Of a stretch of DNA of 64,000 bases, positions 5,543 to 24,343 are shown piece by piece. The notes under the pieces were generated by a model. That model was not told the DNA's origin, ran no database searches, and worked only from the letters and a program-made list of their open reading frames with translations. Source of the DNA: a virus; the IMG/VR virus record IMGVR_UViG_3300042894_002308, positions 1 through 64,000 of that record; one strand, given 5' to 3'. How positions within the stretch are numbered: position 1 is the stretch's first letter; each line of letters starts with the position of its first letter. The position numbers and the translations under genes were made by a program.

Positions 5543-5830
5543 ATGCGACCGATAAACTCCCAGTCCCTGTGTCCGATAATCATTATAGGTCGGGCTGGGA
5601 GTTATCGGGCGTGGGTTGTTATCTGGGCTATACTTATCGGACTCCTGGTTATCGGTCTGCCAGGTGACGAGGTTATTCGCTACCTCAGAGGTTATAATAA
5701 TAATTTAATATTATCGGACGGGATTCAGGCGGACAGGATTCGCATCGATACATGCAGCTACTATCAAAAGGGCACCTGGAGGCCCCAGATTAATAATATT
5801 AATACTCTGGACGGGATTCAATACCCTTAG
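5543..5830 (+). CDS. possible small membrane protein, 95 aa
   Basis: An open frame from ATG 5543 follows a promoter by 12 bases and has one strong hydrophobic segment (about residues 23-40, VVIWAILIGLLVIGLP) followed by a charged region. It overlaps the GTTATCGGAC repeat cluster and an unpaired CTACTATCA arm, which argues that the DNA may be conserved for other reasons. There is no clear ribosome-binding site. It could be a real membrane protein or a chance frame. Confidence 0.3.
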   Translation: MRPINSQSLCPIIIIGRAGSYRAWVVIWAILIGLLVIGLPGDEVIRYLRGYNNNLILSDGIQADRIRIDTCSYYQKGTWRPQINNINTLDGIQYP

Positions 5831-5880
5831 AGAGCTCCAGGTATGTGGCCTGGACAGGATACAGCTAATCTGGACAGGAT

Positions 5881-6192
5881 TGTTCAAAAAATTATAATAA
5901 TTTACTCAAATTGTTCATAAAGGACCCTGAATTGTCCAACCTGGATGGACGGTACGCAGAAACTGTAAGAAATTGTAAATTTTTAATAAAATTTCAAGTA
6001 TTTGCTTGACTCCTAGGACTGGATATAGGCGATTGGTGCCTTAAAGGGTCTCTGGAGTTCTTTTTGACCCTCGGATGGCTCTGAGAGGCGTATAGAACGC
6101 TTAAAGAGGCTTTGAGGAGTGGTCACTAAACTCCATACTCTCAAAATTTCTTTAAAATTCATTACCCCACACCACCCCATACCAACCCATTC
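5881..6192 (+). other. non-coding AT-rich stretch after the repeat cluster
   Basis: No convincing gene. It begins with an AT-rich block (5880-5925) holding two TTGTTCA repeats (5880 and 5910), continues with TTTTTAATAAAATTTC near 5980, and ends beside the 3' end of the minus-strand genes. TTGACT at 6006 has no -10 partner. The AT-rich block next to iteron-like repeats is compatible with a DNA-unwinding element. Confidence 0.4.
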
Positions 6193-6504
6193 TTACCCAC
6201 CCATTTTCCAAGTCTTATCTTTAGAGTCATATTCGTACATACCACCCCTAAAACGTCTGTTAAAGTCCGGTGGTAACTTTGGTAATGGAGGAAGTGTCTT
6301 GTGAGGTGGAAACATAGGTGGAGGTGGTGCTGCTGGTGGTGGAGGCGGTGGTGGAGTAGGCGATGGAGTAGGTAAAGGATTATTTGGTGGATATCCTGGT
6401 CCTACTGGCACTAATACTCCATTGTTGGGAACTTTCCCTGATGGAGCAGATCCTGTTGCACCCGGTGTATTTACTTCATACAAAAATGTTTTAAATTTCT
6501 TCAT
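6193..6504 (-). CDS. capsid-targeting-leader protein, proline-rich, 103 aa
   Basis: It begins MKKFKTFLYE, the shared leader of this operon, with an L-Y-E site at residues 8-10 that fits the T4 gp21 prohead protease pattern (L/I-x-E). The body is a low-complexity Pro-rich segment (about 40-78, runs of seven Pro) and a short basic C terminus. ATG overlaps the stop of the upstream gene (ATGA). Last gene of a five-gene coupled operon. Inferred role: small internal head protein. Confidence 0.7.
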   Translation of the reverse strand: MKKFKTFLYEVNTPGATGSAPSGKVPNNGVLVPVGPGYPPNNPLPTPSPTPPPPPPPAAPPPPMFPPHKTLPPLPKLPPDFNRRFRGGMYEYDSKDKTWKMGG

Positions 6505-6674
6505 TGTTTTACCTTTTTAACTTTTAACTTCTTTAGTTTATCTGCTTGTGGTGTATACACTTCTGTATCTGTCTCTGAATTGGTAATATCCTTTTGTTGA
6601 GATATATTACTAAATGGTGGTACTACATCAAGATACACATCATAATTTTCTAAAAATTCTTTAAATTTTCTCAT
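6501..6674 (-). CDS. capsid-targeting-leader protein, 57 aa
   Basis: A 58-codon frame, ATG 6674 to TGA 6501, overlapping both neighbours by ATGA, which makes it a genuine gene despite its size. It begins MRKFKEFLEN, like the other leaders but without the exact L-x-E site at positions 8-10. The C terminus is strongly basic (LKKLKVKKVKQ) and could bind DNA. Function unknown; presumably packaged with its neighbours. Confidence 0.7.
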   Translation of the reverse strand: MRKFKEFLENYDVYLDVVPPFSNISQQKDITNSETDTEVYTPQADKLKKLKVKKVKQ

Positions 6675-7216
6675 TCTCTTACTCCATGTATCATTCCATG
6701 CTGTATTGTTGCATTCGGAAATACCTTCTTTACATCATCTAGGTATGCTTGTGTTGGGGAATTGTTCTGCCATGAATCTTTCTTTGTTTTTCTTCCTTTG
6801 CCTGACTTATCCCCTTCGTATATGCCAATAAAGATTCTACCACCGGGTTTGAGTGTTGAGTGTGCTGTCCTTAAGGCTTCTTGTCTGTACTCCGGTTCCT
6901 TAATAACATTCAGAACATTGAAGAGTGATGCGGTATCTGCTCCCTGTTTGCCTACAGTCTCCATGACTCTCTTATTGTGATCTTCGGGTCGGTTGAACGG
7001 GTCATAGACATGAGCATTCACCCCCAAATTTTTAAGAAATTCTACACCATTATCAAACTTACCCCCACCGATATCAATATGCGTAGTTCCCTTCTTCCAA
7101 CCAATCTTTCTATGCACAGTTGAGTATCCTGTTGGAAGTTTGTTTTTGTTGATGCTGGTTCCGGCTGATGAGAACTCCTGTGCATCTTCTCTTAAAAATT
7201 CTTTAAATTTTTTCAT
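6671..7216 (-). CDS. class I SAM-dependent methyltransferase with capsid-targeting-like leader
   Basis: 181 aa. Residues 1-10 are MKKFKEFLRE, the shared leader with an L-R-E cleavage-like site. The rest is a Rossmann methyltransferase: motif I HIDIGGG (46-52), acidic position in VYDPFN (70-75), then a NVLNVI..PEYRQEAL segment (about 99-114) and KPGGRIFIG. The middle resembles phosphorothioation-associated methyltransferases, from memory only. No NPPY-type motif is seen, so DNA adenine methylation is not supported. If the leader works, an active methyltransferase would be packaged in the head. Coupled by ATGA to both neighbours. Confidence 0.75.
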   Translation of the reverse strand: MKKFKEFLREDAQEFSSAGTSINKNKLPTGYSTVHRKIGWKKGTTHIDIGGGKFDNGVEFLKNLGVNAHVYDPFNRPEDHNKRVMETVGKQGADTASLFNVLNVIKEPEYRQEALRTAHSTLKPGGRIFIGIYEGDKSGKGRKTKKDSWQNNSPTQAYLDDVKKVFPNATIQHGMIHGVRE

Positions 7217-7680
7217 TTGTTTTCTTTATCCGAATATCCAAACCTAGATCCTGTTGTTGGTGAAGCCACATAATTATCGTCAAACGGGCTTGGTGTTGGT
7301 GTTGGTGTTGGTTTATTTGGTTTTGGTTTTTGTATAGGTGTAATACCACCAAACACCTGTCCCATTGCATTTAAAGTTCCTCTTGCGGTTATTGCTGCCA
7401 TATCCAAAACAGACATTTCTTCTTTATCTTCATATTCTGTTTGAATTCCTTGAGGTTTATTCATATGTAATTCATTATCAAAAAATTCAGGTGAACCAGA
7501 AGGATTCATAGCCGTTGTTCGCAAGTTTTGTTGATTTCTAATCAGTTCTTGTGCTTCTCGGTTTTTTCTTTCACGTGGGGTTTCATTTTGGTTTGGATTC
7601 ATCGCTGCATTTTCGATTTCTTGTTTATCAAAATCAGTAAGCGAATCATTTTCTCTTAAAAATTCTTTAAAACTTTTCAT
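7213..7680 (-). CDS. capsid-targeting-leader protein, 155 aa
   Basis: It begins MKSFKEFLRE (L-R-E site). The body is polar and Asn/Pro-rich, with a TPTPTPSP segment (about 125-132) and no membrane segment or catalytic motif. Overlaps the upstream and downstream genes by ATGA. Probably a packaged internal protein; no family recognised. Confidence 0.7.
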   Translation of the reverse strand: MKSFKEFLRENDSLTDFDKQEIENAAMNPNQNETPRERKNREAQELIRNQQNLRTTAMNPSGSPEFFDNELHMNKPQGIQTEYEDKEEMSVLDMAAITARGTLNAMGQVFGGITPIQKPKPNKPTPTPTPSPFDDNYVASPTTGSRFGYSDKENK

Positions 7681-8081
7681 GTGTTTCTCTTTGTTGGTGA
7701 TACTTTGTTACCCGATGCTCCCTGCATTCCTACTCGTGACTTCTCTGCCTTCTTGCGTTGCAATTCCTTTGATGACATCTCTGATGATGTCTTTGGAGTC
7801 TTACTACTGACTCTCTTGCTTGGTCTGCAATACTCATTCTTACCCCCTGCACCACAGTCCTTACCAGTCTTAGTATCCTTCCAATCCTCTGCTTCCCATC
7901 TCTTCAGGTTTGCACCTTCTTTAGACTTTTTGACCTGTCCCTTGCCTTTGCGGCACTTGGCGGTTGCTTGGGCTGCACGGGCTGACCACTTACCATAAGA
8001 AGCCATTGCTTTACGATAGCAGGCATCTTTCTCTTCGGTAAGATCATTTGACTCAATTAAAAAATTTTTGAAACTCTTCAT
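7677..8081 (-). CDS. DUF5872-like basic protein with capsid-targeting-like leader, 134 aa
   Basis: First gene of the operon, 5 bases downstream of a TATAAATA late promoter. It begins MKSFKNFLIE (L-I-E site). The body is very Lys-rich and contains GANLKRWEAEDWKD, CGAGG and YCRPSKRVSSKTPKT, which resemble the DUF5872-type domain of many phages and large viruses (recognised from memory). The charge suggests DNA binding in the head. Predicted leaderless late message. Confidence 0.75.
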   Translation of the reverse strand: MKSFKNFLIESNDLTEEKDACYRKAMASYGKWSARAAQATAKCRKGKGQVKKSKEGANLKRWEAEDWKDTKTGKDCGAGGKNEYCRPSKRVSSKTPKTSSEMSSKELQRKKAEKSRVGMQGASGNKVSPTKRNT

Positions 8082-8086
8082 GTAGA

Positions 8087-8094
8087 TATTTATA
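8087..8094 (-). promoter_or_regulatory. late promoter TATAAATA for the five-gene leader operon
   Basis: An exact T4-type late octamer, five bases before ATG 8081, so +1 should be the start codon. Two bases away begins the -35 box of the plus-strand early promoter at 8097. Confidence 0.85.
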
Positions 8095-8096
8095 TC

Positions 8097-8124
8097 TTGA
8101 CTCTTTAACCATATGGTGTATACT
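8097..8124 (+). promoter_or_regulatory. early promoter for the gene at 8131
   Basis: TTGACT (8097-8102), 16-base spacer, TATACT (8119-8124), then six bases to ATG 8131. Back to back with the late promoter on the other strand. Confidence 0.8.
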
Positions 8125-8130
8125 AACTCT

Positions 8131-8565
8131 ATGATTTCTAGACTCTACTCTACTGGTCAGATGTTTCATGATTCTGTGTATGAGGGTTCTATGTATGTGG
8201 AAGTTTCATATACAAACAGGTTGACCTTTGACTCTGCATATACCATGATGGAACCTTGGGCTGAAGCCATTGAGCCCCCTACAGTTGCCGTTACAAGTTT
8301 TTCATCAAATTTGTTTATGGGAACGGCTGATGGTCTATGGATCTATAAAATCTACAATGGGGGAGTATTGGTCAAGACCATTCAGATGGTTGATCAGCAG
8401 TTTGCTATTCCAATCATGTATGATCGAATCGAAAGCATCTCAATGGGTTCGTTGCAGATGACAGAATCAGGTGGTGTTACGCCTACTCCTGTTCCTTCTC
8501 CGGGCATGGGGTTGATGTTAGGAATGGCTGCACTTATTTCATTAAAACGTAAACGAGTTGTTTGA
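8131..8565 (+). CDS. unknown protein with PEP-CTERM-like C terminus, 144 aa
   Basis: Start chosen at ATG 8131, six bases after the -10 box; an upstream in-frame ATG (8113) lies inside the promoter. The C terminus reads PTPVPSPG, then a hydrophobic stretch (MGLMLGMAALISL) and KRKR, which is the layout of PEP-CTERM sorting tails. No N-terminal signal peptide is visible, which is odd for that system. The body is a mixed beta-rich domain of unknown family. Early expression suggests action in the host, perhaps at the membrane through the tail. Confidence 0.65.
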   Translation: MISRLYSTGQMFHDSVYEGSMYVEVSYTNRLTFDSAYTMMEPWAEAIEPPTVAVTSFSSNLFMGTADGLWIYKIYNGGVLVKTIQMVDQQFAIPIMYDRIESISMGSLQMTESGGVTPTPVPSPGMGLMLGMAALISLKRKRVV

Positions 8566-14348: not shown

Positions 14349-15086
14349 TTATGAACCATAATCCACTAAGTAACTACCACCGATTCCTTGGTGTTGCACT
14401 TTTAGTTTTCTAGCTTTTGCCATTTTAATAAGTTGATCTTCAAATTTGGTGTTTTCCTTGTCTGCATCTAACTCACTTTGACGAATATTTTCTCTAGAAT
14501 CGGCAGCATCCATTCCGGTTCTAATACCTCTAATGTGCCGTAATGCTCCTGACAATCCTTCGTCACTACCAACATCATATTCCACTGGCTTTCCACCGTA
14601 TCCGGTAAAAAGACTAACTCTGGATAAATCTGGTTGAGTAGCAACTTGTTCATCGCCTGGTTCGTCATCTCCATCATTAAACGCATCGACTGCGCTTACT
14701 TCATTAAGAAGTCTTGAAACTCTTGGGAAACCACCATAGTTCATGATACCACCATGGATTTCACGACCTTCCTTGATCATCTTCTTTTTCTCAGCCATCT
14801 TCTTCTTGATAGCCTTATCCTTGGATCCAAAGTATTCATCTTTTGATGACTCTACTTCACCATCGCCATCATAGTCCTTGTTAGCCTTTTTATCGGCTTT
14901 CTTGCCAGACTTTTTGTCATCCTTTTTGTCACCCTTTTTGGATTTCTTAAATTTACTAATATCAAATTTCTTCTCAAGAAGATTGATTTGAGAAGAAAGT
15001 TCTTCGGAAAGGTTCCGATAAGAATTTTCTAATTGGGACTGAAGTTGTTCGCAAAGATTACGGTAATAGTTTTCTAAGTGTTTCAT
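14349..15086 (-). CDS. putative internal or scaffold-like virion protein, 245 aa
   Basis: Residues 1-40 repeat a (Y)RNL(C/S)EELQSQ-type helical motif, then a Lys/Asp-rich stretch (about 44-78), a charged helix and SRLLNEVSA (about 125) with an L-N-E cleavage-like site. The C-terminal half is acidic then helical. High charge and late expression are typical of T4 prohead-core or internal proteins. No family recognised. Leaderless late promoter. Confidence 0.6.
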   Translation of the reverse strand: MKHLENYYRNLCEQLQSQLENSYRNLSEELSSQINLLEKKFDISKFKKSKKGDKKDDKKSGKKADKKANKDYDGDGEVESSKDEYFGSKDKAIKKKMAEKKKMIKEGREIHGGIMNYGGFPRVSRLLNEVSAVDAFNDGDDEPGDEQVATQPDLSRVSLFTGYGGKPVEYDVGSDEGLSGALRHIRGIRTGMDAADSRENIRQSELDADKENTKFEDQLIKMAKARKLKVQHQGIGGSYLVDYGS

Positions 15087-15103: not shown

Positions 15104-18100
15104 TTATGGGGTTACAATAAGCTTTGTAGTTAAGCTAAATGTATTTCCTGCTGGAATAAGCCCAACGGTACTTATATTAAGCATTTTATGAACTCTAGGG
15201 TTACCAATATTTGTACCACTTTGAACTAATTGAGTAAAATCATTAAAACCAGTTTGTCCAATTGTAATGCTAAAATTACTAGTAATTCCCATTGTCACGT
15301 TATCCCAAGCAGCAGTCCATCCAGTTCCACTTCCTGTTATAGAAATTCCATTTGTATTTCCTGTATGGAATCGATAAACTTCTAATCCTGCTGTTACTCC
15401 GATAGTTTTATTAAAGTTATCAGAAATTGTTATTGTTAACGGATTATTAAAACCATTTGAATTCCAAATAATATTTCTTGTACAATTATTAATATTAGTG
15501 TATGCACAGGTTCCATCAATAGTAATATTACCAGTAGTTGCACCAAGTGTTGCAACTGTAATAGGAGCAGCAACTACAACACTTCTAGCAACAGCATCAA
15601 CCTGCATCATATTATGACCAGTAGCTTCCATTAGTGTGTCCATAGGATTTATTAATAATGGATTTGAAGTATCATAATCGACACCACAGTCCATAAGAAT
15701 AACTTTATATCCTTGATACACACTTATATGTGCTTGATCGGTATGTTTGTGTCCTTCTTTAACTGATGATCCCTTTGCCCAGATAGCATAATGTGGTGTA
15801 GCTGTATTACCAAATGTACCAGAATTAATAGCATCATATGGATTACCAATGACTGATGGTTTGTCTCTACCAGTTCTCCAAATGACTTGTTGTTTATCTG
15901 GATAAAATTTATAATTTGGAATCGTTAATGCTGCAGTAATACCTTGAGCCGCAATAGTATATTGTAAACCCTGCAAATCAGGAAGACTTCTGGGGAATAG
16001 ATATTTAAAATTAGCTAATGCTGTATTACCTTGGTATGACAATACACTTGCAAGAATAGACGGCCAATAATATCCTATAGTATAATCTGCTTGTTGACCA
16101 CCTCTATTATCTTGACAATTAATAATATAATTTCCAGGTAATTGAGAATCAATAGCCCATTGCCAATAATTTTGTAGAAATGGGAACTTGACTGGATCTA
16201 CGAGTCGTGTATCTCCAGTTGCAACCATATAATTAACTGAATTGACCATTTCACCAACAGTTTGTTGGGCATAACCAAATCCTTCAGCAAATCCACCATC
16301 AGCACCTTCATAAGCAAAAGATTCAGCTAATAGTGCAACACCAAGATTATATGATGGTAAGAACTTTTTATCTCCAAGATATAAAGAAATGTTTAGTAAA
16401 GCCGCCGCTGGTTCAATCCATTGATTGGTATTTGGTTGTCCGGATCCAGTAGGCAATCCTGTTAACTGTCCTTTAGTATACCAAGCATATTTTGATTCCC
16501 AGTTGGCAACTAAACCATAAATTTCACCTTCTAACAATCCTCTTAATTTAGTTTCTAAGCCAGTTGTCATACCAGCCGTACCCAATGCATGCATCATAGA
16601 AATTACACCGTTGTTATACCATGCACTTCCTAGATATTTTCCATCATTGACTGGCTCATTTCCAGAATAAATTAATAAATTAGGATTGAAATCACAATCA
16701 CTAATAGTCCATCCATATCTTTCAAATGGAACGTGAGTAGAAATTTCACTTAAAATTGTATTTGCATTATTTAATACTGTTGCTTGATATGTTGTACTGC
16801 CAGGAGATATAGAACGTCCATCTGCAACTCTTGCATCACCAACTTTCCAACCAAATGCTAAATTAAACCCTGATGTACGAATCCAGTTTCCTATATTAGT
16901 ATCTGAGCCAGTCAAAGCAACAATTTGTGTAATCATTGGATTACTACAATTTGACAAAGAACCATTCGGTGTTATAGTACTAGAATATCGATTATATAAT
17001 GGAACATCAGCATTTGTATATGCTCTCGTATATCTTCCAGTCTCTGTTTGTAATGTTGGAAGATAATTATTTGCTAAAGAAGCCAATTGAGCAGTAACAG
17101 TTGAACCCGTTGTTGTAAAGATACTTGGGTCATATGGCACATATGATAAGTTTCCATTATATGCAGTAAGACCTTGAATGAATGTTGAACCTCTTGAAAT
17201 AACAAGAGCACAATCTTGTGTAAGTGGTCCTGTATCTCCGGCATAAGATTTAAACAATCTTGCTATTTGAACTGCTTTAGATATTCCAGCTTGGAGTGCC
17301 AACCTTTGTACATCTGCAGTTCTTCCGTCTACATTAGGTGGCATTACACCCGTTGTTCCTCTCCATACTTCATCATTACCTAAAGGTAGAGTGTATTTAA
17401 AGGCATAACTTGAAAGAGCAGTTTGTGGAATTGTATATATTGAAGTTTGTGTATCACACCAAAGATCATTTAATACTTTTCTGGCTTGATAAATGTATGA
17501 TCCAGCTACACCAAAATTACCTGGCAATACTCCCCAACAATTTCCTGCTGCAAATTTGGAAATATTAATAATATATTGTAATGGGAACCATATAAACATT
17601 TTCTTAACACCGGCATCGGTTGCTGGTTTAAGAGTATAAGTTCCCAAATGAGGATTAAAGCTTACAAGTGATTGGTAATTTTGTAATCCAGTATAACCTG
17701 TTATCGAATTACTAGCTGTGCCGGTTAATATATATTCACTCCCATCCGAAACAGTAAAACTACTAAAGATTTGTGTTGGTACTGATTTTGGATAATTATT
17801 TAATAATACTTGACTAGCACTTAAAGTATTATTATATATAAGTTGTGATGAAGCTGCATCGGTATCCTTTGCATATTTAAAGGCATCGGTGTATTTTGGA
17901 TAGGCTTCAATATCTACACGATCTGTGTTAGCTTTGAATAAGGATATTTTATTTTGATGTTGTGTCTTTAATCGAGTTTTTTCATTTTCATAATCAACAA
18001 GCGTAACTGCAGTTGATTTACCAGCCCATGTGCATGCATTACCTGTAGTAAATGCAAAATAGTATGGTAATGATGGGCAGTTATATTCATAAATTATAGA

Positions 18101-21100
18101 ATTAGGAGAAACGGCTTTAGTATAAGCTAATAGATTATTAAGAAGATCAATTGCTTTTGCGCATGATAAACCAGCAATTGGATCAACATCTCCATTAATA
18201 TAATTTGTCATATCAGATTCATAGTCAAGAACTAAATGATATGGATCTATACCAAAATAATTTTTATTTGCTGTATTCCCATAAAATTGATTAAGAGAAG
18301 TTCTTACCAAATTTTGATACGATGCCCCATTTACTGTAAAATTTGGTCCAAAACTAGCAGATACATTCTGTTCATATAAAAGTTCACCATATTTAATATT
18401 GTTAGCCAACATCGGTGGAATCGTTGCGGCTCTTTCGGTAGCATTAAATGATAGATTAACAATATCAGTAACAACCTCAATACCATTGGAAGCTTCTACA
18501 GCTTGTGTCATTGTTAATGGGTTATAACTAAATGCCGATGCTCCAGGAAGATTGAGAACTCCTAATCTTTCTGCTTCTGATACTGGTGGGTTTTCTACTA
18601 CTGGAATTTCATAACGGTCTGTATTCCACCATATACCAAATTTATTATTAGGAGTTCCAATATAATTTGTAATACCATTTACATAATATGCTGTTGTAAT
18701 ACCACTAACAGATCCTCTTACAATAATTGGAGATTGTGTTGCTGGATGAGCAAAGGTAATACGCCAAACATAATTACCATCAACCTTCTGTGCCCCCGAG
18801 ATAATGTATGATCTTTCATCCATATTCATTGGAGCAAGATATGTTGTTTCCCACACAGTACCATTACCAATAGTTTGGCATTCTCCAATAACAGTATTAA
18901 TTTTTCTTGCGAGTGCCATTTTAATAGCACCACATATACCCATGCAAGTAAGACCACCAATTTTTGTTGGAGATGTTTGTGCTTGAGTGTATCGTCTTCC
19001 ACCAAAACATACTGATTCATTCATAAATGATAATGGAGTTCCATCCGAAGCAGTCATATCATATATACTAGGATTCCAATAAGAATAACGTCCAGTTTTA
19101 TTTAAATACTGATGGCGTATATTTTCATAATACATTGGTCCTGCTTCACCATACATAAATGTAAAGCCGTCTAATTGAGTTGATTCTGCATCAACTCTAG
19201 TACGATATCCAAATGTTAATCCTTCAGGAATATAATATGCACTACCAAATAAATTAGATTCATCACTAATGTCTAGGCTAGCATCACTAGTCCATTTTTG
19301 ATGAGCAACCCATGTATTAATTGGTTTTTGTATTCCGTACCAATTACTTCCTGTTATCTTGGGATGATTGTTAGGATCATTTCTTTCATATATTGCTTTC
19401 GCTACATTTGATTTGGCTACTTGTCTTCCCCACTTAACGTCTGACATTAATGCCATATATCCCATTGGATACCAATGAGTCCAATAATTATTATAAATTG
19501 TTCCAGCAGGCAATGTATTTCCTGGGAATGGATTACCACAAGGATCTACTTTATCAACTGAAATAGTAGTATTGGCTCCCGTCCAATATTTTGTTTTGCC
19601 TCCAAAAGATAATCCATTTAATGTATCGGGACCATATAATGGTATATAATTAGCTGGACCTGCAACATAACCAGACGATAGTCTATTAACATTAATTCCC
19701 CATACTGGATTTAAATGCCAGGAAATATAATGTGGTGCTCTATCAAAACCAACTTTAGTTATACTTGCTGCGCAGGAACCATTAGATCCTGTAGGATCAT
19801 ATCTAAAGAACCCAGTACTTCCCATTATTTCAGCACATGAATAGCATTGAAGTATTTGTGCAGGTCCACTGATTCCGACCCAATTTGCAGGTACCCATTT
19901 TTTAGCATATGTTGTACTTGCTTCGGGAGAAGAATATCCATATTTTCTACCCATTGCTCCCCACGACCAATACCAACCACCAACATTTTTACCATATGTA
20001 ATACCATTGATGACTAATCCGTATGTATTACCTCTCCAATCTAAATTTCTATCAATAATTCTTGGAGAATTGCTATTTGGGTCAATATCTGCCATTATAC
20101 CGCCGTAGGCATGTATTGAACCAACATCACCTACTTGTTCTGTATATAAATTTTGACACGACTCTAAACTAAATGCATCATTATACTGATAATAATCTTG
20201 CATTCTTTTATCAGATGCTGATGTAATATTATTAGTAACAAACGGAACATAATCAGTACTTGTACGAGTTAATGCATCACTAATATGATCTTTAGTATTA
20301 TTTACATAAAAATTATTTGTATAAGATGGATTTGTAAAATTAATTACTGCATTATTTAATTTGTAATATCCATAATCCGCAGATAATGAATTGTCGGCAA
20401 CAATTCCATTATATAATTTAAAATCATCTACCATATCAGTCCAGTGACCAGCATACCAATCTTTAATTGCAGCTTGATGTTCATATCCTAAAATTTCAAA
20501 TGACCCATCACCTGCAAGATTTCCTGGTACATTATCAATAGATCCACCTATGGCAGTCAAACCTTCAACATATCTCCAATTTGATGGATTACTTGTAAAT
20601 CCCTTTGCCAAAAGGTTTGCTCGCATAGAAGTGATGCCACGAGTAATAAAAGAATCTGGAGCAGCAGATGCACCATAAAATGTTGAATACCATTTAGATC
20701 CAGTTGGTGTATTATTAGGATAGAGCCATTTTGAATAAAAATTGGAATCACCAATACGTATTCCTCCGGATATACCAATACCACGATAGTCTAGATAACC
20801 ATATATTTCATCATCTAAATCAAAATGTGCCATGGTAAAACCATTAGCAGAAAGATGTGAATATATTGCCTTTAACTCGGCACGTAGGAAATTCATTTTG
20901 CGTTTTAACCATGGGGTTTTAAACGCGGTAGAAGATCTACGATCACCAGTTAACACAATAGCTTCGGTATCCATAATCGGACTATTAGATTCTGCTCTCC
21001 ACCACCTACTTGCCATCACAACTCTATATTTGTTTGGAATCCAACTGTGGTCTTGAATTACTCGGTTTAATCCAGCAATACTATAAAAACCAGTTGCACC

Positions 21101-24100
21101 AAAGGTTAAACCAATATAACCTGTTGCACTATTCCATGGAAAGGTTGACATATCGATATCAACATCAGGAAAATTATTATATCCAACACCAGTCCATCCT
21201 TGATCTACACCAGCACTCGGTGGAAATATTCCTGCATTTAAATCACTTTGACTTGGGCCATTTCTTCCACGAATAAATTCTACATTGGGCCACATATATG
21301 TCAAACCATTTTGACTGCCCCAACGTTCTGCTTGATTCCAATAACCATATGGTGAATTAAGTGTGCAGAAAAGATCTGGGTTTACATAATTTTTAGGAAC
21401 AATGTTTCTAGATTCAGCAGTAGTTTCTGCATTGAACATAAACTTTGGATTTTCTGGAAGACTTAATGTATTCAGTCTTTGTGCTTCAGATACTGGTGGG
21501 TTTTCAACAATTGGAATTTCCAGATTTCCACTATTCCACCATATACCAAATTTATTATTTGGATTATTGATGTAATCTGTAACTCCACTGATATTGTATG
21601 CTGTAGTAATACCAGAACACATACCACGAACTATAATGGGTGCAGGATCTGTTGCTGGATGTGCAAATGTAATACGCCAAAGGAAATTAGTATTTATTTT
21701 TTGTGCACCAGAAATCAAATATGATCTCTCATCCATATTTACTGGAGCAAGATATAATGTTTCTTTAACAGTACCATTACCAACAGTGTGGCATTCACCA
21801 ATAATTGTATTAACTTTTCTAACATCCGAAAGCATCATCGCACCACAGACACCAAATGATGTGATGCCACCAACTCTTTGTGGAGTTTGAGTATTAGCTT
21901 GTGGATAATACTTGGGAAAAACACCATTTTGTGTAACATATGGTGGAGTATTTGAAATTGATGTTGTAGTATAATGATCTGGTGGATTATAATATGTAAA
22001 CTTACCAACTTTATTTAAATATTGGTGTCTCATATTTTCATAATACATGGGTCCAACATCACCATAGATATATGTAATACCTGTAGCCATACTTGTTGTT
22101 AAAGTATAATTAAATGTTACTCCTTGTGGAATATACATATAATTGGAAAATGGTTTATTATCAGATATATCTGTACTATTAGTAAAATATTTTTGACTAG
22201 CAATCCATACTTGAATTGGTTTTTGAATTTTATTCCATGCAGAACCACTTATTCCAGGATAATTGGTTGGGTCATTTCTTTGATTTACTGCATCAGCAAC
22301 ATTTACTCTGGCAACGTGTCTTCCAAATCTTACTTGTTCAAGAAGAGACATATATGCCATTGGATACCAGTGTGACCAATAGTTATTATAAATTGTTCCA
22401 GGTGGTAAAGTATTACCTGGAACTGGATTTCCACATGGATCTAAAGCACCTGTTAATGTACTCCAAGTAGTAGAGCCACCAAGCTTTCTTTTAGATTCTG
22501 CACCAGCTGATAAACCACCAAGTACATCAAATCCTCTGATTGGAATATAATTTACTGGTCCTAATGTAGCACCACCATTAAAAGTCTGAACATTAATTCC
22601 CCAAACCGGATTTAAATGCCAGCCAATATATGCTGGTGTCCGATCAAATCCAACTTTATTTTGGTTTGCAGCACTCGATCCATTAATACCAGTTGGATCA
22701 AATTTAAAGAAACCACAATTACCAAGAGTTTCAGCACATGTAAAACATGTTACTAACTGTCCTGGAGCAGTTGATCCAAGATAATTTGCGGGTATCCATT
22801 TACGGGCATCATTTTGATTCCACAACGAAGGATTTGAAAATCTGAATTTACTATATAAACCAAAATAATACTCATATACTTGAACAAGAGCTTTACCAAA
22901 TGTATTTCCACCAAAAGCAAATCCATAACTATTGCCTCTTTGATCTAATGTTCTGTCAATTTGGTATTCGCCATTGGCATACACATCAACCTCTGCCGGA
23001 CCATAAAATGCAGTACTAGAAATATCCCCAGCAACTGAACTATATGTATTATAAAAAGAACCTAAATTACCATGATCATTATATGAATAATAATTAAATA
23101 CACCCAAATCTTGAAAGGCTGTTGGTGAAGTAAATGGAACATAATCGGAAGCAGATTTTGTTAAAATTGTTGGAGAATTTGATGTACCACTTGGTGTTGG
23201 ATTAGAATAATTATGTATTTCGGCATTTGTCTTATAATAGTCATAATCAGCAGATAAAGAATTATCGGCACAAATTCCATTTATTTGTTTAAAATCAGTA
23301 ATAAGATCCGTGATAAAATATCCAACCCAATCTTTCCATGCACTATAGTATTCTGGTCCAAACCACGATGCAAATGGAGTTCCACCTGCAGCAATATTTC
23401 CTTGAGCAGAACAATTTCCAAGAGCTGTTAACCCATCAACATTTCTCCAGTTTCCATTGGTAGTAGTAAATCCTCTTCTTAAAAGAAAAGCTCTATTAGA
23501 TGTAATTCCTTGTAATATTAATGAATCTGGAACCGCACATATTCCATTAAAATTTGCATACCAGTTAGAACTATTTTGAGAATTTGCTGGATATACTACG
23601 TTATTAATAAAACTATTACCACCATTAGTAACAGAAGGACGAAGCCCAATAGTACCAATACCTCTCATATCCCCGATCCCAGCCATACCAAAATATTCAT
23701 CATCTATATCAAAATGAGCACAAGTAAATCCAGATAAACCCATATATCTATAAACAGTATTTAATTCATTACTAAGAAAATTTATTTTACGTTTTAACCA
23801 ATGAGTACGATAAGTTTGAGTACCACCCGCTGTATCAATAGTAATATATTCTGTTCCAGTAATACCTATTGGTCCTACACCAATTCCGTCTAAAGCTCTC
23901 CACGATCTTGGTGGGTAAAATGTTCGGTATTTATTTGGAATATGCGAATAGTTTCGTATAATGTCATCAACATCTGATTTTGTTATAAAACCTGGAGAAC
24001 CAAATGTCATTCCAATATAACCAGTGGATGTATTCCATGGACTTATAGACCAATCAATATCAGAAATATTTTGGCTTCCCGCTCCAGGCCATTCTGATAC

Positions 24101-24343
24101 CGTTGGTGGAGTATTTGTTCCATCTGCTCTAGGAAATTGACCTGCATCCAAGCAAGCACCCTTTGGTCCAAGAATACCAGTAGGATACTTAACATAATGC
24201 CACATATAGGTAAGCCCAGCTGTATTACCCCAAGTTTCACCTTGTTTCCAATATCCAACCACAGGATGTTCAATGAGACCAAATAATTGAGTCGGCATCA
24301 GAACAGTGTATGTAATATTAGTATTAAGTAAAAGTGGATGCAT
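15104..24343 (-). CDS. giant virion depolymerase/tailspike with duplicated module and heparinase II/III-like lyase domain
   Basis: 3,079 aa, over a seventh of the window. Two copies of a module of about 960 residues lie in tandem (about 20-980 and 990-1950); both share WLKRK.NFL..EL, AHFD(I/L)DDE, ADNSLSADY and PPVSEA.RL segments and are similar at DNA level with an offset near 2.91 kb. The HFDxDDE strands suggest a TIM-barrel glycosidase. A third barrel-like part (about 1970-2330) has LVLDYESDM. The C-terminal part (about 2400-2990) resembles polysaccharide lyases, with EGHKHTDQAH (about 2862) and VILMDCG. Probably removes host surface polysaccharide. Family numbers cannot be given. Confidence 0.7.
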   Translation of the reverse strand: MHPLLLNTNITYTVLMPTQLFGLIEHPVVGYWKQGETWGNTAGLTYMWHYVKYPTGILGPKGACLDAGQFPRADGTNTPPTVSEWPGAGSQNISDIDWSISPWNTSTGYIGMTFGSPGFITKSDVDDIIRNYSHIPNKYRTFYPPRSWRALDGIGVGPIGITGTEYITIDTAGGTQTYRTHWLKRKINFLSNELNTVYRYMGLSGFTCAHFDIDDEYFGMAGIGDMRGIGTIGLRPSVTNGGNSFINNVVYPANSQNSSNWYANFNGICAVPDSLILQGITSNRAFLLRRGFTTTNGNWRNVDGLTALGNCSAQGNIAAGGTPFASWFGPEYYSAWKDWVGYFITDLITDFKQINGICADNSLSADYDYYKTNAEIHNYSNPTPSGTSNSPTILTKSASDYVPFTSPTAFQDLGVFNYYSYNDHGNLGSFYNTYSSVAGDISSTAFYGPAEVDVYANGEYQIDRTLDQRGNSYGFAFGGNTFGKALVQVYEYYFGLYSKFRFSNPSLWNQNDARKWIPANYLGSTAPGQLVTCFTCAETLGNCGFFKFDPTGINGSSAANQNKVGFDRTPAYIGWHLNPVWGINVQTFNGGATLGPVNYIPIRGFDVLGGLSAGAESKRKLGGSTTWSTLTGALDPCGNPVPGNTLPPGTIYNNYWSHWYPMAYMSLLEQVRFGRHVARVNVADAVNQRNDPTNYPGISGSAWNKIQKPIQVWIASQKYFTNSTDISDNKPFSNYMYIPQGVTFNYTLTTSMATGITYIYGDVGPMYYENMRHQYLNKVGKFTYYNPPDHYTTTSISNTPPYVTQNGVFPKYYPQANTQTPQRVGGITSFGVCGAMMLSDVRKVNTIIGECHTVGNGTVKETLYLAPVNMDERSYLISGAQKINTNFLWRITFAHPATDPAPIIVRGMCSGITTAYNISGVTDYINNPNNKFGIWWNSGNLEIPIVENPPVSEAQRLNTLSLPENPKFMFNAETTAESRNIVPKNYVNPDLFCTLNSPYGYWNQAERWGSQNGLTYMWPNVEFIRGRNGPSQSDLNAGIFPPSAGVDQGWTGVGYNNFPDVDIDMSTFPWNSATGYIGLTFGATGFYSIAGLNRVIQDHSWIPNKYRVVMASRWWRAESNSPIMDTEAIVLTGDRRSSTAFKTPWLKRKMNFLRAELKAIYSHLSANGFTMAHFDLDDEIYGYLDYRGIGISGGIRIGDSNFYSKWLYPNNTPTGSKWYSTFYGASAAPDSFITRGITSMRANLLAKGFTSNPSNWRYVEGLTAIGGSIDNVPGNLAGDGSFEILGYEHQAAIKDWYAGHWTDMVDDFKLYNGIVADNSLSADYGYYKLNNAVINFTNPSYTNNFYVNNTKDHISDALTRTSTDYVPFVTNNITSASDKRMQDYYQYNDAFSLESCQNLYTEQVGDVGSIHAYGGIMADIDPNSNSPRIIDRNLDWRGNTYGLVINGITYGKNVGGWYWSWGAMGRKYGYSSPEASTTYAKKWVPANWVGISGPAQILQCYSCAEIMGSTGFFRYDPTGSNGSCAASITKVGFDRAPHYISWHLNPVWGINVNRLSSGYVAGPANYIPLYGPDTLNGLSFGGKTKYWTGANTTISVDKVDPCGNPFPGNTLPAGTIYNNYWTHWYPMGYMALMSDVKWGRQVAKSNVAKAIYERNDPNNHPKITGSNWYGIQKPINTWVAHQKWTSDASLDISDESNLFGSAYYIPEGLTFGYRTRVDAESTQLDGFTFMYGEAGPMYYENIRHQYLNKTGRYSYWNPSIYDMTASDGTPLSFMNESVCFGGRRYTQAQTSPTKIGGLTCMGICGAIKMALARKINTVIGECQTIGNGTVWETTYLAPMNMDERSYIISGAQKVDGNYVWRITFAHPATQSPIIVRGSVSGITTAYYVNGITNYIGTPNNKFGIWWNTDRYEIPVVENPPVSEAERLGVLNLPGASAFSYNPLTMTQAVEASNGIEVVTDIVNLSFNATERAATIPPMLANNIKYGELLYEQNVSASFGPNFTVNGASYQNLVRTSLNQFYGNTANKNYFGIDPYHLVLDYESDMTNYINGDVDPIAGLSCAKAIDLLNNLLAYTKAVSPNSIIYEYNCPSLPYYFAFTTGNACTWAGKSTAVTLVDYENEKTRLKTQHQNKISLFKANTDRVDIEAYPKYTDAFKYAKDTDAASSQLIYNNTLSASQVLLNNYPKSVPTQIFSSFTVSDGSEYILTGTASNSITGYTGLQNYQSLVSFNPHLGTYTLKPATDAGVKKMFIWFPLQYIINISKFAAGNCWGVLPGNFGVAGSYIYQARKVLNDLWCDTQTSIYTIPQTALSSYAFKYTLPLGNDEVWRGTTGVMPPNVDGRTADVQRLALQAGISKAVQIARLFKSYAGDTGPLTQDCALVISRGSTFIQGLTAYNGNLSYVPYDPSIFTTTGSTVTAQLASLANNYLPTLQTETGRYTRAYTNADVPLYNRYSSTITPNGSLSNCSNPMITQIVALTGSDTNIGNWIRTSGFNLAFGWKVGDARVADGRSISPGSTTYQATVLNNANTILSEISTHVPFERYGWTISDCDFNPNLLIYSGNEPVNDGKYLGSAWYNNGVISMMHALGTAGMTTGLETKLRGLLEGEIYGLVANWESKYAWYTKGQLTGLPTGSGQPNTNQWIEPAAALLNISLYLGDKKFLPSYNLGVALLAESFAYEGADGGFAEGFGYAQQTVGEMVNSVNYMVATGDTRLVDPVKFPFLQNYWQWAIDSQLPGNYIINCQDNRGGQQADYTIGYYWPSILASVLSYQGNTALANFKYLFPRSLPDLQGLQYTIAAQGITAALTIPNYKFYPDKQQVIWRTGRDKPSVIGNPYDAINSGTFGNTATPHYAIWAKGSSVKEGHKHTDQAHISVYQGYKVILMDCGVDYDTSNPLLINPMDTLMEATGHNMMQVDAVARSVVVAAPITVATLGATTGNITIDGTCAYTNINNCTRNIIWNSNGFNNPLTITISDNFNKTIGVTAGLEVYRFHTGNTNGISITGSGTGWTAAWDNVTMGITSNFSITIGQTGFNDFTQLVQSGTNIGNPRVHKMLNISTVGLIPAGNTFSLTTKLIVTP

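Follow-up and report, generated by a model that had tools for sequence, protein, structure and literature searches.

Based on the following results, we conclude that, in a T4-type phage, five overlapping genes on the minus strand very probably encode precursors of internal head proteins, each equipped with a propeptide resembling the T4 capsid-targeting sequence. The window analysed comprises bases 1-64000 of a 135,768-bp IMG/VR record, and the five open reading frames span 8081-6193. Translation of these frames confirmed what a first-pass annotation made from the sequence alone had described: all products (P1 to P5) start M(K/R)xFKxFL, F4 and F7 being present in 5/5, and each gene overlaps the next by the four bases ATGA. 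The x-E continuation claimed for four of them was recovered as L-x-E at residues 8-10 of P1 (LIE), P2 (LRE), P3 (LRE) and P5 (LYE). The exception is P4, which has FLEN at the end of its leader and no (L/I)xE anywhere in its 57 aa. All features are listed in Table 1.

Table 1. Features of the five-gene cassette and further leader genes (window coordinates unless marked as record coordinates)
Feature	Position	Strand	Remarks
Late promoter box TATAAATA	8087..8094	(-)	T4-type by consensus; 5 nt ahead of first cassette ATG; genome-wide scan
P1, 134 aa, pI 10	7677..8081	(-)	Leader + KDACY...KCRK domain + DUF5872
P1 leader MKSFKNFLIE	8052..8081	(-)	N terminus MKSFKNFLIES
P2, 155 aa, acidic	7213..7680	(-)	Asn/Pro-rich body without known family
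P2 leader MKSFKEFLRE	7651..7680	(-)	N terminus MKSFKEFLREN
P3, 181 aa	6671..7216	(-)	Class I SAM-dependent methyltransferase behind leader
P3 leader MKKFKEFLRE	7187..7216	(-)	N terminus MKKFKEFLRED; K2, F4, F7, E10 invariant in orthologues
P4, 57 aa	6501..6674	(-)	Leader, then conserved YDVYLD
P4 leader MRKFKEFLEN	6645..6674	(-)	N terminus MRKFKEFLENY; targeting residues retained, cut motif not L/I-x-E
P5, 103 aa	6193..6504	(-)	29 Pro
P5 leader MKKFKTFLYE	6475..6504	(-)	N terminus MKKFKTFLYEV
Leader gene MLSFKQYLIE, 632 aa	42287-44185	(-)	Own TATAAATA 5 nt before ATG; HEGQH
Leader gene MLRFKQYLIE, 295 aa	record 128195-129082	(+)	HELQH
Leader gene MKSFKQYLLE	record 133286-133759	(+)

The genes had also been claimed to share one late promoter. 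Judged by its consensus, this holds in this genome: TATAAATA precedes P1, no second copy was found inside the cassette, and the box is retained before P1 in a near-identical relative (L374). The claim does not extend to more diverged relatives, where the box was not seen at the cassette start. Its 5-nt spacing was also considered as a general trait of leader genes and rejected, as it is not general elsewhere. Within the record, six ATGs are preceded by TATAAATA at a distance of exactly 5 nt (window 8094, 15099 and 44198 on the minus strand; record 132029 on the minus and 133273 and 133772 on the plus strand). Given the T4 late-promoter spacing, the A of these ATGs would be +1 and the late mRNAs would be leaderless. 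The divergent neighbour of the cassette (window 8113-8565, plus strand) encodes a protein with a PEP-CTERM-like tail, PVPSPGMGLMLGMAALISLKRKRVV (TIGR02595, 14 bits, cut-off 16), an unusual sorting-type tail for a phage protein; its relatives in L375 and L379 have similar ends (VPAPGIGLL...RRR and VPSPGVSAML...KKR). Further, window 15104-24343 on the minus strand is a single open frame of 3079 aa.

Proteins of this kind are already known from T4. There, the protease gp21 cuts after L/I-x-E, the propeptides of the internal proteins (IPs) are 10-19 aa long, and IPIII genetics identified residues 4 and 7 as the main determinants of targeting and residues 8 and 10 as those of processing (PMC9026906); IPIII with Asp10 gets packaged uncut. 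The T4 internal proteins, which have the leader alone in common, counteract restriction enzymes (PMC3012670, PMC12373910), and the uptake of various proteins by T4-like phages by means of the capsid-targeting sequence (CTS) has already been suggested in a review. IPI, IPII and IPIII resemble the cassette products in their 10-residue leader with Lys2, aromatic residues at 4 and 7 and L/I-x-E at 8-10 (IPI begins MKTFKEF), as well as in their unrelated bodies, gp21-type protease and polymorphic loci. They differ in that five genes form one coupled run here, and in the leader itself (MKTYQEFIAEA in T4, consensus MKxFKxFLxE here). Further, the T4 cargo consists of small anti-restriction proteins, whereas the cargo here includes a methyltransferase and DUF5872, and P4 has no cut motif. 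Another T4 protein, Alt, is a head-carried ADP-ribosyltransferase with an N-terminal cut-type site (MELITE), but its propeptide is not of the MKxFKxFLxE type. In bacteriophage P1, an N-terminal signal likewise loads the anti-restriction protein DarB and a reporter into the head, but no common consensus sequence is reported. As a control, the T4 genome was searched in full with the strict motif, which recovered ipII, ipIII and gp61.1. The product of the last (54 aa; NC_000866 18966-19130, minus strand) starts MKTFKEFIKEDMVAG and, to judge from this N terminus, may be an unrecognised T4 internal protein.

On sequence grounds, the leader is selected as a protein-level signal. P3 was aligned with 11 orthologues (54-87% identity to P3). 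All 12 proteins have K2, F4, F7 and E10; position 8 is occupied by L, F or I, whereas positions 3, 5, 6 and 9 vary freely. At the invariant residues, the codons drift (AAA/AAG, TTT/TTC, GAA/GAG). The conserved positions coincide with the targeting (4, 7) and processing (8, 10) residues of T4 IPIII, a match which was not built in and which bears out the T4 likeness proposed initially. In addition, 35 body families without relation to each other, all behind MKSFK(E/Q)F, a pattern that does not require Glu, were examined for Glu at residue 9 or 10. It is present in 24/35 families, compared to a background of 9% at two adjacent positions within residues 21-40 (p 2e-17), and several of the families without it have a later L/I-x-E, like T4 IPI (MKTFKEFTSTTTPVSTITEA).

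Recurrence of the leader is far above chance. Three more leader genes, absent from the list of the first-pass annotation, lie outside the cassette (Table 1), two of them with a slightly altered leader. Those with 632 and 295 aa look like zinc metallopeptidases by their HExxH motifs, while Pfam gave no match for either. The true motif hits five real genes in the 136-kb record, namely four of the five cassette genes and one other; P4 misses the strict motif solely by its E10 term, and a further match with a GTG start looks spurious. Permuted motifs gave 1, 0 and 0 matches in 843 kb of related DNA. When IMG/VR was scanned for the DNA pattern of MKxFKxFLxE, at least 120 viral contigs were hit. Among the 120 matches listed, 119 start a frame that is at least 40 aa long or continues past the contig end, and 117 lack a long in-frame stretch upstream and are, thus, plausible gene starts. 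The 115 proteins among these matches form about 50 clusters, the bodies of which show no similarity to each other. A permuted control pattern, scanned completely, hit 67 contigs, mostly with 10-14-codon frames in repeats, but also one large and one small family. One viral family that was hit repeatedly (L131 and others; 431-435 aa) starts MKSKFELFLETKG or MKSKFELFLETKGLNTISFA; the control is, therefore, not purely one of chance, but it yields one such family versus about 50.

Pfam domains of the cargo among the matches listed include S-adenosylmethionine lyase, ADP-ribosyltransferase, methyltransferases, DnaJ, phage lysozyme, GH19 chitinase, zinc protease, acid phosphatase, cytidylyltransferase, GNAT acetyltransferase and DUF6321. 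The search for the leader on other bodies in relatives, proposed along with the first reading, was thus successful, also at the cassette locus itself, which exchanges its cargo. Most relatives retain P3 and P4 and swap the rest. P1 is kept next to P3 in L375, L376 and L385; in L377 a leader-borne ADP-ribosyltransferase (5543-6148; PF03496, 3e-14), comparable to T4 Alt, directly follows P3 and further leader genes are present. L375 has a leader gene with DUF6321 nearby, and L380 has leaders on a 228-aa and a 149-aa body. In the relatives seen, P4 retains F4 and F7 but not L/I-x-E. P2 and P5 are intact only in the near-identical L374, and since they are not kept beyond it, their bodies may do little. 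A detachable tag which works on any body would allow the locus to trade cargo in this way.

The individual proteins were compared with databases. The DUF5872-like and methyltransferase assignments made earlier proved correct (P1: PF19197, E 6e-12; P3: PF13489, E 2.7e-8), whereas P2, P4 and P5 gave nothing above the Pfam cut-off and a PHROG search returned no function for any of P1 to P5. P1 is a fusion of two small basic proteins. Its halves match the adjacent gp64 and gp63 of Roseobacter phage CRP-7, whose genes adjoin the terminase gene, and its DUF5872 half also matches a gene between the scaffold and capsid genes of the podophage P-SCSP2. The first domain (KDACY) matches virion proteins of cyanophages detected by MS (S-SCSM1 ORF29, 3.5e-9; S-CREM2 ORF160, 2e-6). 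With a pI of 10, P1 probably binds DNA. A cyanophage multidomain protein joins small basic DUF5872-like, KDACY and DUF6321 domains that are separate genes in other phages; it is located at L405 1180-3279 (S-CAM9) and L386 42662-44215 (S-SCSM1 ORF29), the latter a virion protein by MS. The match of P3 to phrog_14016 starts at residue 1. An AlphaFold2 model of P3 (pLDDT 79.6) has a lone helix at residues 4-12, is of low confidence as far as residue 21 and continues with a methyltransferase fold matching SAM-dependent methyltransferases in PDB (E about 1e-6); in this model, the leader would be a tag on a string ahead of the enzyme body. Weak matches suggest that P3 possibly acts in restriction counteraction or on RNA.

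Some of the same bodies lack the leader in phages of other types. In Pelagibacter phage HTVC115P, DUF6321 is encoded two genes behind the capsid gene and starts MAKSPAWQRKEG, with no leader, whereas in a leader-bearing contig it starts MKTFKQFLEEIDSLDEKSPAWQRAAG. Likewise, the P3 homologue of the 485-kb phage LR745208 starts MTYSARTTRP without a leader, while that of the KVP40-type Vibrio phage VH7D, the third gene after a head vertex gene, carries MKKFGEFLTEV. Leaderless homologues near head genes in other phage types indicate that the bodies themselves are head-associated and that the tag is an add-on.

A gp21-type protease, suggested as a check by the initial annotation, was found in the rest of the genome. 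An S77 prohead protease is encoded at record 99298-99945 (PF03420, E 3e-39, profile positions 42-193, over cut-off), contains the segments GELNHP and GVSTRG and adjoins homologues of gp20, gp22 and gp23. The record thus holds a T4-type head module of portal, S77 protease, scaffold, gp23-like major head protein and terminase (PHROG matches phrog_207, 237, 138 and 213), and also a T4-type replication set (UvsX, DnaB-like helicase, primase, RNR). The major head protein shares about 53% identity with its counterparts in cyanophages and phage C48C1, which places the phage among T4-like phages, yet not close to an isolate. Three neighbouring core-type proteins begin MKSTLSVKTQNYLIES, MIPTTKLLLKHGVRSLLAE and MKNNVRQMLKNIVEE, short stretches ending in L/I-x-E (sites YLIES, SLLAEN and NIVEEN); FLIES of P1 is nearly the same site as YLIES of the 228-aa core-type protein. 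Across records that are mostly short fragments, S77 is present in 6/33 with the leader pattern and 3/25 with the control pattern, a comparison that carries little weight given the fragment lengths. Around S77 genes (within 10 kb), the leader has a low density of 0.5 per 100 kb; leader genes are, hence, not concentrated near the head module.

Proteins bearing the leader are present in virions of relatives according to published cyanophage data. For S-CREM2, 52 proteins were detected by MS in CsCl-purified particles, although the authors leave open that some are contaminants (PMC10665884). Among them, a SAM hydrolase (MKDFDSFLEE), a kinase (VKRFDAFLTE), a cytidylyltransferase (MKNFSSFLTE) and ORFs 13 and 136 (MKDLHSFLTE, MQTFSMFFSE) have the leader. 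ORF15 and the large ORF12 carry related forms, the latter 15 residues in. An all-frame scan with the strict motif found six S-CREM2 genes, five of which are MS-detected, compared to 52/219 overall; the p-values of 0.003, or 0.0002 with 26 structural and lysis proteins set aside, are only indicative, as the motif range was loosened after the sequences were seen. The IMG/VR leader set includes a SAM lyase cluster, which aligns with S-CREM2 ORF6 from residue 1 onwards. In S-SCSM1, one of two leader proteins was found in the virion (NMNAT, MKSFLQFLKE; a 106-aa leader protein is not listed), and in S-SZBM1 the cytidylyltransferase with a short leader (MRFRQFIIE) was detected, but two small leader proteins were not; both MS data sets are shallow for small proteins. 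An NMNAT or cytidylyltransferase with this leader type is, thus, a virion protein in all three cyanophages, whose leader genes are mostly scattered rather than arranged in a cassette. The accessible parts of these papers contain neither a proposal of a packaging or sorting signal nor an N-terminal peptide showing leader cleavage.

Taken together, protease, leader on many bodies and, according to published MS, leader proteins in cyanophage particles support the head-loading reading put forward initially. One coupled late message would yield all five precursors, which would be drawn into the prohead core late in infection. There, the leader, as a short amphipathic helix with K2, F4 and F7, would bind the core, F4 and F7 lying on one face. 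The S77 protease of the same record would cut P1, P2, P3 and P5 after Glu10 and free the bodies. P4, which keeps F4 and F7 without L/I-x-E, is predicted to be packaged but probably not cut, as is T4 IPIII with Asp10. The mature proteins would stay with the DNA in the head, probably enter the next cell and act there within the first minutes. The results above show the leader and its selection as protein, the protease, the head module, the exchange of cargo and, from published data, leader proteins in virions of relatives. What we infer is that the proteins of this phage are packaged, cleaved and injected, and how each cargo acts, injection into the host by analogy with T4 IP biology (PMC12373910).

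Other explanations were weighed against this. The proteins might be parts of the prohead core or scaffold, docked by the leader and degraded or lost at maturation, so that nothing would be delivered. T4 offers precedents, as IPIII also affects head morphogenesis and gp21 destroys core proteins; moreover, the core-type proteins of this phage start with comparable sites (MKSTLSVKTQNYLIES, MIPTTKLLLKHGVRSLLAE, MKNNVRQMLKNIVEE), and P2, P5 and P4 are small, of low complexity or unconserved. However, cargo elsewhere consists of enzymes such as SAM lyase, ADP-ribosyltransferase, lysozyme, DnaJ and cytidylyltransferase, and the cassette proteins have at most two L/I-x-E sites beyond the leader compared to a dozen in T4 gp22. 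In addition, the SAM hydrolase, kinase and cytidylyltransferase survive into mature virions of S-CREM2. We regard a mere core role as unlikely. Clearly less probable still is a leader targeting a membrane or host site, or a set of late cytoplasmic proteins with a lineage-specific N terminus that reach virion preparations as contamination. The leader agrees exactly with the genetically defined T4 CTS residues, the S77 protease is in the same record, the same bodies are leaderless in other phage types, and the P1 domain family adjoins head genes in unrelated phages. All this stands against the leader proteins that were not found in virions and the possible contamination mentioned by the S-CREM2 authors.

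Finally, the 5′ ends could serve as a DNA or RNA device, for ribosome loading, coupling or as a recombination hook, with an inert peptide. The leaders of P2, P3 and P4 do share long DNA identity (TTTAAAGAATTTTTA), ATGA coupling needs re-initiation, and recombination in the common stretch could aid cargo exchange. Nevertheless, synonymous codons vary at every invariant residue, on which basis a DNA-level leader function was rejected; further, residue 9 is free while Glu10 is fixed, and Glu is enriched across unrelated families. This explanation is, in our view, highly implausible.

Under the preferred reading, a head-loading tag so far regarded chiefly as a feature of coliphages, with three to ten cargo proteins, would mark some 50 cargo families in the T4-like phages, which abound in water. 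It is likely that T4-type phages in marine and other waters use MKxFKxFLxE as a general code for capsid loading, by which dozens of unrelated proteins, many of them enzymes, are made as tagged precursors, packed and injected. The leader alone would then predict this arsenal, and the puzzling metabolic and anti-restriction enzymes of cyanophage virions would be such cargo. If so, a ten-residue pattern would list, from genome and metagenome data, proteins that are probably injected in the first minutes of infection. It would also provide the enzymes in cyanophage virions, for whose packaging there was no explanation, with a sorting signal and make packaging versus contamination directly testable. 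As far as the literature searched shows, the breadth of the cargo, the five-gene coupled cassette, the same bodies without tag elsewhere and the link to cyanophage virion enzymes are new; a description of the leader in cyanophages or KVP40-type phages was not found in this literature, from which subscription journals were mostly absent.

A second shared N terminus, (T)NYY(K/R)NL(S/C)EQLQ, was observed on different bodies, often with L-x-E near residue 30. It occurs at window 14349-15086 (minus strand) and record 132046-132429 and 132467-132973 (plus strand), as well as in L376 (3397-3897), L377 (9742-10350) and L380 (6314-7102), adjoining the cassette in the latter two. By its pattern, it is perhaps a second class of head-targeting leader.
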